NCBI GenBank assembly: GCA_021325515.1
Contig: JAJPHC010000039.1
Coordinates: forward strand, 1 to 64,000
DNA length: 64,000 nt
Reading direction: 5' to 3'
Origin: Acidobacteriota bacterium
Lineage (GTDB): Bacteria > Acidobacteriota > Thermoanaerobaculia > Gp7-AA8
The notes under the pieces were generated by a model. The model had not been told where the DNA came from and searched no databases. It saw nothing but the letters and a program-made list of their open reading frames with translations. The position numbers and the translations under genes are program-made. Below are positions 22,200-28,544 of the stretch, piece by piece. The stretch's first letter is position 1. Every line of letters starts with the position of its first letter.

Positions 22200-25169
22200 A
22201 TGCTCCAACCCGGCACAACCCACGGGCGTTACGAGATCCGCTCTCTCCTCGGCCAGGGCGGCATGGGTGAGGTGTACCTCGCGCACGACACGCAGCTCCA
22301 GCGCCCGGTCGCTCTGAAGGTTCTCCCCGCGGAGCTGCGCGACGACCCGGAGCTGCGCGACCGGCTCGAGCAGGAAGCGCGCGCCGCATCCGCGCTGAAT
22401 CACCCGAACATCCTAACCGTCTACGACACCGGCCTGCTCGGCAGCGACCACTACATCGCGACCGAATACGTCGACGGCATCTCGCTCCGCCAGCGCCTGC
22501 AGCGCGGCGAGATCCCGCTGCGCGATGTCGTCAGTATCGGCGTTCAGATCGCCTCCGCACTCGCGGCGGCGGAGGCCGTGGGCCTCGTGCATCGCGACAT
22601 CAAGCCGGACAACATCATGGTCCGCACCGACGGCTTCGTGAAGCTGCTCGACTTCGGCCTGGCGCGCATGGCAAACCGCAAGCGGACGTCGCAGGCCGGC
22701 ACGATCCGCGGAACGATCGCCTACATGTCGCCGGAACAATTCCGCCGCGCGGGGCAGATCGACTCGCGCAGCGACATCTGGAGTCTCGGCGTCGTTCTCT
22801 ACGAGCTGATCAGCGGCCGTCTGCCGTTCGAGGGCGGCAGCGTGCCGGAGATCATGAACTCGATTCTGAAGAGCGAGCCGCAGCCATTGACGCGCCCAGG
22901 CGGCTCGATCGTTCCCGTCGAGCTCTCGACGATCGTCTTCCGCGCCATCCTGAAGGACCGCGAGCGGCGCCCGCGCACTGCACGCGAGGTCTTCGACGAG
23001 CTGCGCCAGCTCCGCATCGATCACGAGACTGCGATCACGGGAGTGATCACGCCGGACATGACGCAGACGGCGTCGACGGACCAGATCCAGATCGCCGCGC
23101 CGACGAATCTGCCGGCGCCGCTCACGCCCCTCCTCGGCCGCGACGCCGAACGCGATGATGTGCTCAGCCTTCTGCGGCGCGATCACGTCCGCATGCTGAC
23201 GCTCACCGGCCCGGGCGGCACCGGCAAGACGCGTCTGAGCCTCGCCGTCGCGCACGAGCTCCTGCACGAATACGAAGACGGCGTCTGGTGGGTGTCACTC
23301 GGCCCGATCCTCGATCCCCGTCTCGTGCTCTCCGAGATCGCATCGGTCCTCGGCGTTCCGGAAGGGGGCGCGCTGCTGGATGCGGTGAAGAGCGCGCTGC
23401 GCGACCGCTCGATGCTGCTCGTGCTCGACAATTTCGAACAGCTCCTCGATGCCGCGCCGGTGATCGCCCAACTATTGACTGCAGCACCGAATGTGAAGGC
23501 GCTCGCCACGAGCCGCTCTCCGCTGCACATCCGCGGCGAGCACGAATACGCGGTGCCGTCGCTCACGCTGCCGCCGCTCGATCTCCCTCTCGCACCGGAA
23601 GCGCTGACGCAGTACTCGTCCGTCGCGCTGTTCGTGGAACGGGCGACGGCCGTGAAGCCGGATCTGGCGATGACGCCGGAGAACCTGCGCGCGATCGCCG
23701 GAATCTGCGTACGGCTCGACGGCCTGCCGCTGGCGATCGAGCTCGCCGCAGCGCGCGTGAAGATGCTCGCGCCCGATGCGATGCTCGCGCGCATGGGCGA
23801 GCGCTTCAAGCTGCTCTCCAGCGGTGCGCGCGATCTTCCCGAGCGTCACCAGACGATGCGCGCCGCCATCTCCTGGGGCTACAACCTCCTCAGCGAGGAA
23901 GAGAAGGATCTCTTCGCCACGCTGTCGATCTTCCGCGGAGGCTTCTCCCTCGCCGCGGCAGAGCGCCTCGCCGGCAACGATGTCATGGATGGCGTTTCGT
24001 CACTGCTCGACAAGGCATTCCTGCGGCGCGACCCGGCGGCGCGCAGCGGCATGCCGCGCTTCTCGATGCTGGAGACGATCCGCGAGTACGGGCTCGATTG
24101 CCTCACCGGCAACGGCCGCCGCTCGCTCGTGCAGCTCGCGCACGCCGGGCTCATGGCGCGCATCGCCGAAGAGAACGAGCTCGAAACCGAGCTCCTCGCA
24201 CAGGATGAGGACAACTTCCGCACGGCACTCGAGTCGGCGATCGCGGAGCGCGATGCCGAGCTCGCGCTGACGCTCGGCGCGTCGCTGTGGTGGTTCTGGT
24301 ATCTGCGCGGCCTCTACAGCGAAGGGCGTGCGTGGCTGAATCAGATCCTCGCGCTGCCGGGCGGTGAAGACGTCGCTGTGCGTGCGAAGGCGATGACCGG
24401 CGCCGGCGCGCTGGCGTTCCTGCAATGCGATTACGACGCGGCGACCTCGTTTCTCGACAAGGCGATCGATCTGGCGCGGGCGCTCGGCGACATGACCAGC
24501 CTCGCACAGTCGCTGCAGTTTCGCGGCGGCATCGCGCGCGAGCGCGGTGAGTACGATCTCGCCGTCGATCTCCTGCATCTCGCGCGCAATCTCTGGATCG
24601 ATCTCGAGGACACGGCGAACGCGGGCCGCGCGCTGAACTACATCGCGTTCGCGTCGTGGCTGCGGGGCGATCTCCAGCCGGCGCTCGACCTCTCGCACGA
24701 GACGCTGGCGCTGTTCCGCCAGCGCAAGGATGTGGAGGGGGTCGCCTGGTCGCTGCTGAATATCGCGGCGGCCTCGTTCTACGGCGGCGCGCTGCCGCAG
24801 GCGGAGGAGCGGCTGGAGGAGTGTCTCGCCTGGTCGCGCACCGGAAGTTTCAAGGAAGGTGTCGCCTGGTCGCTGAATCTGCTCGGGCTCGTCATGCGCG
24901 CGCGCGGCGATGCGAACGCGGCGCAACTGCTGCGCGACAGCCTGCGGATGCAGTGGGAGCTCGGCGACCGCTGGCGCAGCGCGAGTCTGCTCGAAGCTCT
25001 CGGCGGCGTCTGCCGCGATCCGCGCTTCCTCGGCGCGGCGGCGGCACTCCGGCACGAGCTGGGAACACCCGTCCCGCCGGTGGAGCGGGCCCGGCTCGAT
25101 GCGGACATCGATCAGATCGGAATCGCCGAGTGTGCGATCGAAACGGCGATCGCGGTGGCACTGGAATGA
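22200..25169 (+). CDS. Ser/Thr kinase fused to STAND-type ATPase and TPR repeats
   Basis: A 989-residue three-part protein. The kinase domain (about 11-275) has LGQGGMGEVYLA, VALK, HRDIKPDNIMV, DFGLARM and SPEQFRR. Residues about 310-620 form a STAND/AfsR-like ATPase with Walker A GPGGTGKTRLS (about residue 337), Walker B LLVLDNFEQ and the ALATSRSPL sensor motif. About residues 640-970 are TPR-like helical repeats, as in MalT/LuxR-type regulators but without a DNA-binding HTH. It probably acts as an ATP-switched signalling scaffold. The input ligand is unknown. Its TGA stop overlaps the next gene's ATG (ATGA), so the two are translationally coupled. Confidence 0.93.
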   Translation: MLQPGTTHGRYEIRSLLGQGGMGEVYLAHDTQLQRPVALKVLPAELRDDPELRDRLEQEARAASALNHPNILTVYDTGLLGSDHYIATEYVDGISLRQRLQRGEIPLRDVVSIGVQIASALAAAEAVGLVHRDIKPDNIMVRTDGFVKLLDFGLARMANRKRTSQAGTIRGTIAYMSPEQFRRAGQIDSRSDIWSLGVVLYELISGRLPFEGGSVPEIMNSILKSEPQPLTRPGGSIVPVELSTIVFRAILKDRERRPRTAREVFDELRQLRIDHETAITGVITPDMTQTASTDQIQIAAPTNLPAPLTPLLGRDAERDDVLSLLRRDHVRMLTLTGPGGTGKTRLSLAVAHELLHEYEDGVWWVSLGPILDPRLVLSEIASVLGVPEGGALLDAVKSALRDRSMLLVLDNFEQLLDAAPVIAQLLTAAPNVKALATSRSPLHIRGEHEYAVPSLTLPPLDLPLAPEALTQYSSVALFVERATAVKPDLAMTPENLRAIAGICVRLDGLPLAIELAAARVKMLAPDAMLARMGERFKLLSSGARDLPERHQTMRAAISWGYNLLSEEEKDLFATLSIFRGGFSLAAAERLAGNDVMDGVSSLLDKAFLRRDPAARSGMPRFSMLETIREYGLDCLTGNGRRSLVQLAHAGLMARIAEENELETELLAQDEDNFRTALESAIAERDAELALTLGASLWWFWYLRGLYSEGRAWLNQILALPGGEDVAVRAKAMTGAGALAFLQCDYDAATSFLDKAIDLARALGDMTSLAQSLQFRGGIARERGEYDLAVDLLHLARNLWIDLEDTANAGRALNYIAFASWLRGDLQPALDLSHETLALFRQRKDVEGVAWSLLNIAAASFYGGALPQAEERLEECLAWSRTGSFKEGVAWSLNLLGLVMRARGDANAAQLLRDSLRMQWELGDRWRSASLLEALGGVCRDPRFLGAAAALRHELGTPVPPVERARLDADIDQIGIAECAIETAIAVALE

Positions 25170-25603
25170 AGTTCCTCCGTCTTCCGCCGATCCTGTTCGT
25201 GCTCTGGCTAACCATCGGCTGCATCCTGCAGGCGCGCTGGCCTCTGCCGCTCCACCTGCCGCGGATCGCAGGGATCGTCATCCTCGCTCTCGCGGCGGCC
25301 CTGGCCGCATCGGCACTGCTGGCGCTGCACCGGCGGCAAACGGCGATCGAGCCGTGGCACCGGCCGTCGGCGCTGGTCACCAGCGGTGCCTTCGCGATCT
25401 CGCGCAATCCGATCTACGTGTCGCTCATCCTGATCGTCTTCGGCCTCGCGGTGGCGGCCGATGCACTCTGGCTCGCAATCGCAGCGGTGATGCTCTGGCT
25501 CACGCTGGATGTCGTCATCGTCCGCGGCGAAGAACGCCTAGTGCTCGACGCCTTTGGCGAGGAGTACGACGCGTACAGGCGGCGCGTCAGGCGCTGGCTC
25601 TGA
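25166..25603 (+). CDS. Isoprenylcysteine carboxylmethyltransferase-like membrane protein
   Basis: A 145-residue protein with three or four hydrophobic helices and the family's C-terminal signature: a GAFAISRNPIYVSLILIVFG helix, then GEERLVLDAFGEEYDAYRRRV. In ICMT and phospholipid N-methyltransferases these residues bind SAM. Bacterial members act on lipids or remain uncharacterised. It starts on the ATGA overlap with the kinase-ATPase gene, so the two are probably co-translated. Longer upstream reading frames here only shadow the kinase gene. Confidence 0.85.
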   Translation: MKFLRLPPILFVLWLTIGCILQARWPLPLHLPRIAGIVILALAAALAASALLALHRRQTAIEPWHRPSALVTSGAFAISRNPIYVSLILIVFGLAVAADALWLAIAAVMLWLTLDVVIVRGEERLVLDAFGEEYDAYRRRVRRWL

Positions 25604-25613
25604 GCCTGCCCGC

Positions 25614-25919
25614 CTACCTGAAATTCAGCGGCGTGATCGCCGCGCCGCAAACGCCGCCGACTAACGCAATGATGCACCCGCCGATCAGGAAGCCGGCCGC
25701 CAGCCCACGGCTCTTCGGCAATCGTGAGAGGCCTACGAAGAGCAGACCAGGAACGAGTCCGATGAAGAACGCGAGGACCTTCGAGTTGGTGCTCGCCCCC
25801 ATCAAGCCCGCGACGACATTCGCCACCGCACCGCAGCCGAGGGAGAGAAACAGGCCGCCGATCAGCGCCGCAGGATTGAACGCGGCCGGCGCCGCAGGGA
25901 CAGGCTCATTCGTACTCAT
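25614..25919 (-). CDS. Small membrane protein downstream of the Tes-like radical SAM gene
   Basis: A 101-residue protein with a Pro/Ala-rich N-terminus followed by two or three hydrophobic segments with many Gly (ALIGGLFLSLGCGAVANVVAG, VLAFFIGLVPGLLFVGL, AAGFLIGGCIIALVGGVCGAAI). The start MSTNEPV at 25919 was chosen for the AAAGGT site 6 nt upstream. It begins only 2 nt after the stop codon of the radical SAM gene, so it belongs to that operon. The family is not recognised. It could support a membrane-embedded lipid reaction, but that rests on position alone. Confidence 0.7.
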   Translation of the reverse strand: MSTNEPVPAAPAAFNPAALIGGLFLSLGCGAVANVVAGLMGASTNSKVLAFFIGLVPGLLFVGLSRLPKSRGLAAGFLIGGCIIALVGGVCGAAITPLNFR

Positions 25920-25921
25920 GA

Positions 25922-27328
25922 CTACCTTTCCGCCCACGCCCGCAGCGGCGCGAGACGCTTCTCCTCGAGATCATCGCGATAAAACAGATTGTACGTGTCG
26001 AATGGAATCAGCCGCCCGTCGGGATGGACGATGTGCACGCAGGTCTTCTTCACCGATCGCAGATCGAACGACTGCGCGTCGATGAACTCCACGATCAGCA
26101 GCCGGAAGATGTCGCCGTAGCGAAGATCGCCGGAGACCCGCGGGAGACAACAGAGCAGATCCTTGAGCTTTTCCGGCTGGGACTCGGCGCCGAGGGCCGT
26201 CGAGAACAGTTGCACGAAGGCGTTGCGCACGCCGGGCTCGTTCTCGAACACGATCGTGTTGCGGCTTCCGTCCAGCAACGCGTTGCGCCCGATCATCGAC
26301 GTCAGCGGAATCGCACCATCGCCGCTCTTGAGCGCGTAGCCCATGCACAACGAATCGGGATGACAAGGGACCGGCACCAGATCCTCGGGTGCAAAGAGCG
26401 GCGACTGCTCGAGGATCCTGCGGCGAACTTCCGACAGCGTGAGGCGATGCGCTCCGTCGTCGTAGCCGTCGAGCCGTCCTGCCGACTGCACCGGTTGCAG
26501 CGTGATCCCGCGCACGCAGCGCTGCTTCAATGCGAAGTCGATGATCGCGCCGATCTCCCCGTCATTCACACCCCGCTGCAGCGTGACGACGAGCGTCGTG
26601 GAGATGTCGAGCTCATTGAGGCGCTCGATCGCTTTCATTCGGATGTCGCGCAGATCTCCGCCGCGCAGCAGCTCGAGCGGCTGGGCCTGCAGCGAATCGA
26701 ACTGCAGATAGATCTCGAAGAGCGGCTTGTACGATGCGAGCCGCTGCGCGAACGCTTCATCGCGCGCGATCCGAATTCCGTTCGTATTCACCATCAGATG
26801 CCGGATCGGCCGCTTCTTCGCGGCATCGAGAATCGCGAAGAACTCCGGATGAATCGTCGGCTCGCCGCCGGAGATCTGGACGACATCCGCTTCCCCTTCG
26901 TTGGCGATGATCGCGTCGAGCATCGACTCGATCATCGACATCGAGCGGTGATGCTGCCGCTCCGGCCCGCTCTCCGCGTAGCAGATCGGGCAGCGCAGAT
27001 TGCACGCGTCCGTCACTTCGACGAGCGACACGCAACTGTGCTGCTCATGATCGGGACAGAGGCCGCAGTCGTAAGGACACGACCAGCGGATCGGCGTGTT
27101 GCGGCGCAGCGGCATCTCCGGAGGCTTCAGATAGTTCTCGCGGCACTGCCGGTAGTACGCGACATCGTCCGCCATCAGCACGCGCTCCGAACCATGCTGC
27201 GGGCAGTGCTTCAACATCCAGACGCAGCCATCCTCGAAGACGATCTTCCCGTCAATCCTCCGGTAACACGTCGTGCAGATGGAGACGACGGAGTCGTAAT
27301 ACAGATACGGCCGCGCTGCGCTGGTCAT
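25922..27328 (-). CDS. Tes/MJ0619-like radical SAM enzyme (membrane-spanning lipid family)
   Basis: A radical SAM protein of about 468 residues. The N-terminal Cys module (SICTTCYRRIDGKI, then KHCPQHG) and the CPYDCGLCPDHEQHSC block precede the cluster motif CNLRCPIC (CxxxCxxC). ISGGEPTIHPEF and LPVPCHPDSLC-like elements follow, and the C-terminal KKTCVHIVHPDGRLIPFDTYN segment. This order of Cys clusters is that of the MJ0619/Tes family. Characterised archaeal Tes joins lipid tails to make tetraethers, and bacterial relatives are proposed to make membrane-spanning lipids. The gene is placed after an Lgt-like gene that it overlaps by about 77 nt. The start is either 27328 (MTSAARP) or 27346. 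The lipid substrate is an inference. Confidence 0.85.
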   Translation of the reverse strand: MTSAARPYLYYDSVVSICTTCYRRIDGKIVFEDGCVWMLKHCPQHGSERVLMADDVAYYRQCRENYLKPPEMPLRRNTPIRWSCPYDCGLCPDHEQHSCVSLVEVTDACNLRCPICYAESGPERQHHRSMSMIESMLDAIIANEGEADVVQISGGEPTIHPEFFAILDAAKKRPIRHLMVNTNGIRIARDEAFAQRLASYKPLFEIYLQFDSLQAQPLELLRGGDLRDIRMKAIERLNELDISTTLVVTLQRGVNDGEIGAIIDFALKQRCVRGITLQPVQSAGRLDGYDDGAHRLTLSEVRRRILEQSPLFAPEDLVPVPCHPDSLCMGYALKSGDGAIPLTSMIGRNALLDGSRNTIVFENEPGVRNAFVQLFSTALGAESQPEKLKDLLCCLPRVSGDLRYGDIFRLLIVEFIDAQSFDLRSVKKTCVHIVHPDGRLIPFDTYNLFYRDDLEEKRLAPLRAWAER

Positions 27329-27989
27329 TCGTGAATACAGCTCCATAGTAGAGCAGTCCCGCGACGCACGCCCACTGGAGCGACGTGAGGCCGCCGAAGA
27401 TCGGCGCCGGATCAGGCTTCAGAAAATCGACGAACAGGCGGAAGAGCAGATACGAAGAGAGAAAGACGCGAAACGCGTCGCCTTCGTGCCGTGACCGTGC
27501 GCGCACGAAGCGCGTGAGCGGCAGAAGCATCAGGAGAAAGGCGATCTCGTACAACGCGACAGGATGGCGGCGCACGCCGTCGCCGATCGCGATGCCCCAG
27601 GGCAGCGACGTCGGCAGGCCCGCGGTGTGATCCGCAGGGCCCAGCAGAAAACAGCCGACGCGGCCGACCGCGATCGCGACGATCAGCGGCTCGGCGAGGA
27701 GATCGCCTGTCGACCGTTCGATGCCGCTCCTCTTCTTCGCGAGCTCCACGCCAATCAGACCGCCGAGGAGGCCGCCGAGAATCGTCTTCCCTTCGAAGAG
27801 GGAGAAGAGATCGAGATGCGGATCGCAGAGCCAGTGCAGGAGGCGCGAGCCGATCAGCGCGCCGAGTGCCGCGCCGGCGAGAACAGTGGCGCGCGATTCG
27901 TGCGACAGCGCATCGCCGTGCCGCGCACGCTGCCAGGCGTAGAGCGAAATGCCTGCGAAGTAACCGAGGGCTTCGAAGAGAAAGTGCAT
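27252..27989 (-). CDS. Prolipoprotein diacylglyceryl transferase (Lgt)-like membrane protein
   Basis: A 245-residue polytopic protein. GKTILGGLLGGLIGVELAKK, VGRVGCFLLGPADHTAG, PWGIAIGDGVRRHPVALYE and LFRLFVDFLKPDP correspond in order to the conserved Lgt segments, including the Arg of GRVGC and the HP-x-x-LYE motif. Lgt transfers diacylglycerol from phosphatidylglycerol to a lipobox Cys. Because it overlaps a Tes-like radical SAM gene, it may instead be a paralogue acting on another lipid substrate. The last 30 or so residues overlap the radical SAM start. A TACCAT -10-like box lies 22 nt upstream of the ATG. Confidence 0.82.
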   Translation of the reverse strand: MHFLFEALGYFAGISLYAWQRARHGDALSHESRATVLAGAALGALIGSRLLHWLCDPHLDLFSLFEGKTILGGLLGGLIGVELAKKRSGIERSTGDLLAEPLIVAIAVGRVGCFLLGPADHTAGLPTSLPWGIAIGDGVRRHPVALYEIAFLLMLLPLTRFVRARSRHEGDAFRVFLSSYLLFRLFVDFLKPDPAPIFGGLTSLQWACVAGLLYYGAVFTNDQRSAAVSVLRLRRLHLHDVLPED

Positions 27990-28226: not shown

Positions 28227-28544
28227 GTGGCGTTCTACACCGACTCCATCGCTCGCCTCAACGAGCTGTCTTCGAATCGAAAGGAACGAATCCTCTGCAG
28301 CGAGTCGGAGTTGCCCGGCATCCTCTGGGTGCTGCTGATCGGCGGCAGCATCATCTCGATCGCCTTCACCTATCTGTTCGGAACGGCTAACCATACGGTG
28401 CACACGCTGATCGTGACGATGCTCTCCGCGCTGCTCAGTTTCGTCCTGTTCATGATCTTCAGTCTCGAGCATCCCTACAGCGGCAGCATCTCCGTGAAGC
28501 CTTCGAGTTTTCAGCGCGTCATTGCCGCACATTCGCGAGAATAG
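28227..28544 (+). pseudogene. Truncated DUF4239 (bestrophin-like) fragment
   Basis: The 105 residues from a GTG codon match only the C-terminal half of DUF4239 membrane proteins: FYTDSIARLNELSSNRKERI, then SELPGILWVLLIGGSIISIAFTYLFG and a further helix ending in LEHPYSGSISVKPSSF. Full members are about 250 residues and have an N-terminal helix pair before this point. In frame upstream there is a stop at 28158-28160 and no such helices. On the opposite strand at 28070-28143 an open stretch reads MVGVLYSVLLGALIVAMVV, which resembles the missing DUF4239 helix. It is probably a broken gene, possibly with an inverted piece. Confidence 0.6.

Follow-up and report, generated by a model that had tools for sequence, protein, structure and literature searches.

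What does a radical S-adenosylmethionine (SAM) protein of the Tes type do when its gene lies between those of an Lgt-like membrane transferase and a small membrane protein? This question is raised by a cassette of three tightly packed minus-strand genes within positions 25614-27989 of a 64,000-nucleotide stretch of DNA (hereafter, the window; contig JAJPHC010000039.1, assembly GCA_021325515.1) from an Acidobacteriota bacterium of the Thermoanaerobaculia. The original prediction, made from the letters alone, saw in it a module for membrane-spanning lipids. We found that the cassette is one instance of a conserved and patchily distributed module, which consists of the Lgt-like enzyme, the Tes-fold radical SAM protein and one to three small transmembrane proteins, nearly all of them bearing a cysteine. 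As far as sequence can tell, this module probably modifies a membrane protein or a lipid in a way that is undescribed. Two of its properties are new here, i.e., the membership of the small cysteine-bearing protein and the exchange of partners, in sister loci, for a methyltransferase. In the window, the cassette reads as follows:

27252..27989, minus strand: Lgt-like membrane transferase of 245 residues, from a distinct LGT subfamily (Pfam LGT, NCBIfam lgt, subfamily invariants, tree)
25922..27328, minus strand: Tes-type radical SAM protein, 468 residues from M7 (Pfam and NCBIfam profiles, homologue alignment, AlphaFold model)
25614..25919, minus strand: small membrane protein, 101 residues from the ATG, about three transmembrane helices, C-terminus ...ALVGGVCGAAITPLNFR
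25647..25649, minus strand: cysteine codon (read from the sequence); this conserved residue of the small protein lies in its last transmembrane helix and is the proposed acceptor thiol
27252..27328, minus strand: 77 nucleotides shared by the Lgt-like gene and the radical SAM gene

The radical SAM reading frame opens at 27346 (25922..27346), which is an alternative start; M7 is the near-invariant start residue among the homologues and gives the gene 25922..27328. The ATG of the small protein, at 25919, lies 2 nucleotides beyond the radical SAM stop codon, and an in-frame GTG upstream, at 25937, is an alternative start that would make it overlap the radical SAM gene. The arrangement first described, with its 77-nucleotide overlap and its 2-nucleotide spacing, was thus confirmed throughout on the minus strand. 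Two other genera of the host family have cassettes with an identical 77-nucleotide overlap, and the homologues of the small protein in two sister cassettes end in IGGICGASM.. and VGGTCGG.., respectively.

Is this association conserved? Scanned with a three-genus alignment, 84,980 species genomes gave at least 80 homologous loci (57-82% identity; all counts out of 80 are among the matches listed), from Acidobacteriota, Bacillota (including Paenibacillus, Neobacillus, and Brevibacillus), Bacteroidota (including Flavobacterium and Pedobacter), Planctomycetota, Verrucomicrobiota, Myxococcota, and Pseudomonadota. The Lgt-like gene adjoins the radical SAM gene in 61 of the 80 loci, in at least five phyla (the first five named), and the two genes overlap or lie within 30 nucleotides of each other in 47 of the 65 measurable pairs. 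Of 199 Acidobacteriota genomes sampled evenly, 11 possess the radical SAM gene (at least 59% identity), and all 11 carry the Lgt-like gene (Fisher p 2e-16). Among the other 188 genomes, the Lgt-like gene is present in two, once beside a divergent relative (38%) and once at a contig end. This recurring gene order is far beyond chance, and the link between the two genes, which had been offered with reserve, is real. Only three of the 18 sampled genomes of the host's own family carry the module, which is therefore accessory and probably mobile; among named relatives, a Thermoanaerobaculia metagenome-assembled genome comes closest, with a protein that is 82% identical. Two appearances were discarded along the way. 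An Lgt-radical SAM fusion in locus L111 has a junction made of N (XXXX) and is a scaffold-gap artefact, and the imperfect pairing suggested by 22 core tree loci without Lgt was partly due to short flanks, longer regions giving the 61 of 80 reported above.

What stands beside the radical SAM gene in the remaining loci? In 13 of the 80, a SAM methyltransferase takes the place of both the Lgt-like enzyme and the small protein (Woeseiaceae, Shewanella, other Pseudomonadota, and some others); neither partner is present in six, four of which are at contig ends, and no locus contains the Lgt-like gene and the methyltransferase together. The same alternation extends to deeper relatives, found with an Lgt-like gene on a Mycobacterium plasmid and in genome G234, and with a methyltransferase in Mycolicibacterium, in Haloarcula (together with DUF547 and redoxin genes), and in genome G149. 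Relatives of the module with the two alternative partner sets are carried on plasmids in Haloarcula (L188), Mycolicibacterium (L187), and Mycobacterium (L189), which is consistent with horizontal spread.

The small membrane protein, which has no Pfam match, had been treated as a bystander. Taking as candidates the same-strand neighbour proteins that have two or more hydrophobic helices, we found one to three small transmembrane proteins in 68 of the 74 Lgt-type loci versus one of the 16 methyltransferase-type loci, with two or three tandem copies in L047, L060, L067, L088, L092, and L189. The small protein is thus a conserved part of the module. These proteins are barely alignable to each other, except within Bacillota, and 92 of the 93 found in the 68 loci contain a cysteine, which lies within a predicted transmembrane segment in 87. 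Its usual context, seen in most of the 93, is [GA]-x-C-[GF], e.g., NAACFG in Paenibacillus, GLGICGT in Flavobacterium, GGVCGA in the window, GLCG in Acidobacteriia, and GGLCTG on the Mycobacterium plasmid. Most phyla have the cysteine in the last helix and Acidobacteriia have it in the first one, with the same motif and the same predicted orientation; an apparent absence of the residue from the Acidobacteriia proteins was rejected once it was located in this first helix. Lysine and arginine residues are more numerous before the cysteine helix than after it in 53 of 59 proteins of the C-terminal type and in 18 of 22 of the N-terminal type, predicting an in-to-out helix in both cases.

Is the neighbouring transferase still an Lgt? 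The protein is a member of the LGT family (PF01790, 84.9 bits for a cut-off of 24.9) that stays below the equivalog cut-off of NCBIfam lgt (TIGR00544, 32.1 versus 118.9 bits). Like Lgt (PDB 5AZB), it has the RHP, YE, and Gln motifs. R110 and R184, the equivalents of E. coli Lgt Arg143 and Arg239, which have been called essential (PMC8048626), are invariant in 59 homologues, across which H142, Y147, E148, and Q205 are also kept. Unlike Lgt, the subfamily has invariants of its own (KTIxGG, E82, K85, T122, D137, and K191) and it separates from the canonical Lgts in a tree (support of 96 in the Shimodaira-Hasegawa-like approximate likelihood ratio test, SH-aLRT). The enzyme looks catalytically competent, with a changed specificity. 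The host genome contains three LGT matches, the best of which (197 bits) is a canonical Lgt on contig C27; the window gene is a paralogue rather than the housekeeping enzyme, so that the suspicion of a sole Lgt devoid of conserved adjacency can be set aside. The cysteine of a GRxGC motif (Asn146 to Cys) was considered as a unique active-site change and rejected, because canonical Lgts of the same phylum, including that of the host, share it. The third LGT match of the host (G000:C45:91569-92045; L194 3429-5537, minus strand) is part of a 702-residue membrane protein that also holds a methyltransferase-like N-terminus and a PAP2-like middle, and which seems to be an unusual lipid-enzyme fusion.

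How could these two membrane components work together? We infer that the small proteins supply what an Lgt needs, i.e., an in-to-out helix with an acceptor cysteine at its outer end. Indeed, since it lies in such a helix, among small residues and in the outer half of the membrane, this cysteine would be placed like a lipobox cysteine (see PMC8048626 for Lgt chemistry and the placement of the lipobox). The reading that we favour, tentatively and somewhat short of an even chance, is that of an acceptor-enzyme pair. The Lgt-like enzyme would transfer a diacylglyceryl group from phosphatidylglycerol to the cysteine of the small protein, as in Lgt chemistry, and the radical SAM enzyme would perform, from the cytoplasmic side, a linked radical modification of the lipidated product or of the lipid transferred, with a chemistry that differs from that of Tes. 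A broader proposal, which we regard as rather doubtful, is that the module defines a new class of lipidated membrane proteins, in which a glycerolipid would be attached to an intramembrane cysteine of small multi-helix proteins that are not lipoproteins, before a radical link is made by a Tes-fold enzyme with a remodelled C-terminal cluster, for example between a lipid chain and the protein or within the lipid.

Several points weigh against the acceptor-enzyme pair. The cysteine context is not that of a standard lipobox, the residue at -1 often being L or I, and no cysteine-bearing small protein was found in six Lgt-type loci. The motif pattern matches 59 of 79 small proteins, compared with 4.9 on average for shuffled sequences and with 3 of the 88 other small transmembrane reading frames of the loci; it was defined once the sequences had been viewed, which makes this excess a description rather than a test. 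His103 of E. coli Lgt, from the H-G-G-L motif, corresponds to Leu71 in the Lgt-like protein, at a position that varies within the subfamily. The methyltransferase-type loci yielded neither a counterpart of the small protein nor any short peptide conserved by eye, and because of these loci the substrate of the radical SAM enzyme may be something other than the small protein. Finally, the activities of all three proteins are deduced from their sequences.

Does the radical SAM protein join lipid tails, as originally proposed? A bacterial coupler of the Tes/MSS type working with a glycerolipid-handling Lgt-like enzyme could yield membrane-spanning lipids, e.g., those based on iso-diabolic acid. 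Several features of the protein speak for this. Its Pfam matches, Radical_SAM (95 bits) and Zn_ribbon_HMPTM (60 bits), are both above cut-offs, and its closest solved relative by sequence is GDGT-MAS/Tes (MJ0619; 7tol, E 6.5e-65). The AlphaFold model (pLDDT, the predicted local distance difference test, 85.9) best matches 7tom and 7tol (template-modelling scores, TM, of 0.80 and 0.78), while the other listed solved radical SAM proteins score below 0.4 on the query scale. The cysteine motifs quoted from the start are all present and, as in Tes, form a rubredoxin-like site (C24/C27/C48/H51, with the C48PQH51 motif; C-x2-C-x20-C-x2-H), an N-terminal [4Fe-4S] cluster site (C90/C94/C97 in C90PYDC94GLC97, with H100/H103), and a SAM cluster site (C115/C119/C122 in C115NLRC119PIC122; CX3CX2C), which are kept through 89 homologues. 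By sequence, fold, and three of its four metal sites, the protein belongs to the MJ0619/Tes-type superfamily, to which it had been assigned. Moreover, its partner handles lipid, the characterised relatives of the fold act on lipid chains, and bacterial Tes homologues have been proposed for the synthesis of branched glycerol dialkyl glycerol tetraethers (PMC8941075).

However, the protein is not Tes, the known tail-joining enzyme. It scores 257.1 bits with the Tes model (NF045702), for a cut-off of 450, and falls in a clade of its own (75 rows, SH-aLRT 100), separate from the clade of Tes and Mss-like proteins (SH-aLRT 100), in a quick LG+G4 tree with SH-aLRT support only, where Tes is represented by Acidobacterial proteins above the cut-off. 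Membership of the Tes/MSS clade itself, the other half of the initial assignment, therefore did not stand. The main difference concerns the fourth metal site. The cysteines of the HxHC, RC, and PFC motifs of the C-terminal domain are conserved in both Tes and TrsS; in the window family, PFC becomes PFD or PFE in 89 of 89 homologues, the HxHC cysteine is variable (C in 34, A in 26, S in 19), and the RC cysteine is replaced by S or T, with an invariant cysteine one residue on. The segment PDGRLIPF (residues 442-449), cited as typical of Tes, is indeed there, but it is followed by D (PFD) where Tes has its conserved cysteine (PFC), which makes it as much a difference as a likeness. C328 and C436 are new invariant cysteines. 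Also absent are some 25 residues that precede HxHC, together with part of the next helical region; these segments stand beside the lipid pockets of Tes. The gene partners differ from those of Tes as well. The ligands of the C-terminal [4Fe-4S] cluster were assigned from conservation and from the position of Met439, the labile ligand of Tes, which corresponds to Val419 in the window protein and to Met in 59 of 89 relatives; in Tes itself, the M439A variant retains activity (PMC9433317).

In Tes, the substrate carbon binds a cluster sulphur during coupling, and the cluster proposed is the C-terminal [4Fe-4S] (PMC9433317). Since its ligands are largely lost here, a coupling mechanism of the Tes type is unlikely in the window protein, and the reaction would not be simply copied from Tes. 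If we add that a profile search at 1e-40 found no other Tes-like or Mss-like gene in the host genome, and that the Lgt-like gene is replaced by a methyltransferase in sister loci, the tail-coupling reading is weakened to the point that we consider it unlikely. As a separate observation, the host possesses two adjacent HGD-D (PF06050) genes (G000:C40:241311-243589), a family that we take to be part of the PlsA/Ger ether-lipid enzymes, so that the host may possibly have an ether-lipid capacity.

Two other relatives help to situate the protein. Mss belongs to the same wider radical SAM superfamily (PMC13274423), but a group of Acidobacterial proteins presumed to be Mss-like (310-350 bits against Tes) falls within the Tes clade and the window protein outside it, a comparison that covers presumed Mss-like proteins only. 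The best-scoring curated model is that of TrsS (NF045646), which the protein matches over nearly its full length with 309 bits, below the cut-off of 490; TrsS forms a separate clade (SH-aLRT 99) and, unlike the window protein, keeps the C-terminal cluster cysteines. There is also a likeness in the partners: TrsS presumably has a DVU_1556-like methyltransferase partner and part of the wider window family has one too. In the Acidobacterial loci L158, L159, and L160, the TrsS gene contains an in-frame TGA and its product is likely a selenoprotein; the window radical SAM gene has no in-frame UGA. In locus L191 (G054:C143), two divergent radical SAM genes of the Tes family, 36% and 30% identical to the window protein, lie in tandem and have neither an Lgt-like nor a methyltransferase partner.

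What does the methyltransferase say about the reaction? It is DVU_1556/ArsM-like (144 bits with NF045667, for a cut-off of 155), scores 88-98 bits, also below cut-off, with arsenite methyltransferases, and has conserved CC and CECxxC motifs; DUF547 is often, and a redoxin sometimes, a neighbour in these loci. The swap of the Lgt-like and small protein pair for a methyltransferase, seen in Pseudomonadota, haloarchaea, and some Actinomycetota, suggests that the same kind of nucleophile is alkylated with a different group, and we infer that the methyltransferase is a functional substitute for the Lgt-like partner. In another explanation, the radical SAM enzyme would equip a small molecule or a lipid with a soft nucleophile, such as a thiol, the Lgt-like enzyme and the methyltransferase would be interchangeable caps, adding diacylglyceryl or methyl, and the cysteine of the small protein would serve as a carrier or a docking point. 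The mutual exclusion of the partners, deep relatives included, fits this, as does the fact that both Lgt and SAM methyltransferases transfer alkyl groups, and the resemblance of the swapped enzyme to arsenite methyltransferases and its DUF547 and redoxin neighbours point the same way, giving a lead towards an arsenosugar-like function. But the connection with arsenic or a soft nucleophile is a weak similarity, and the small transmembrane protein is absent from the methyltransferase loci; we give this explanation a minor chance.

Could the small protein instead be the direct substrate of the radical SAM enzyme, as in ribosomally synthesised and post-translationally modified peptides? Small, variable, sometimes tandem partners with one conserved residue beside a radical SAM enzyme are reminiscent of such systems; the enzyme would modify the cysteine or a neighbouring glycine, and the Lgt-like protein would bind or lipidate the product. 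This is improbable on several grounds. The radical SAM protein has no Pfam match to SPASM, and leader-binding domains were not seen; after Tes, the match to solved folds drops to a TM score of 0.38 (SkfB and SuiB, 0.35-0.38). The enzyme operates without small proteins in the methyltransferase loci, and the cysteine lies in a predicted transmembrane helix, far from the cytosolic active site. Of the placement envisaged at first as an alternative, i.e., outside Tes/MSS and with peptide-modifying enzymes, the tree bears out the former, and the grouping with SPASM enzymes was not found.

The place of this family also matters for lipid studies. Bacterial Tes homologues are used to infer which organisms make membrane-spanning lipids, and thereby affect the reading of temperature proxies in soils and sediments. 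Zeng et al. counted such homologues by loose cut-offs (PMC8941075), and proteins of the window branch may already be listed among them. Indeed, this branch could pass loose homology cut-offs while it is devoid of the coupling-cluster ligands, and counting it as Tes would mislead. In the open-licence literature, searched for radical SAM with diacylglyceryl transferase, Tes-like with Lgt, TrsS, and DUF547, we found no description of the Lgt pairing, of the small protein, or of the partner swap. As this large module occurs in cultivable aerobes (Paenibacillus, Neobacillus, Flavobacterium, and Paracidobacterium) and offers an obvious candidate acceptor residue, its function is directly testable.

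Two genes flank the cassette in the window. At 25166-25603 (plus strand), a PEMT-type phospholipid methyltransferase gene converges on it from one side; it is not a conserved neighbour in the homologous loci examined. On the other side, just upstream of the Lgt-like operon, 28227-28544 (plus strand) matches Bestrophin-like (PF14023) over profile positions 139-232 of 232 only. Devoid of its N-terminal half, the gene seems truncated; it borders the module and may be a scar left when the latter was inserted.

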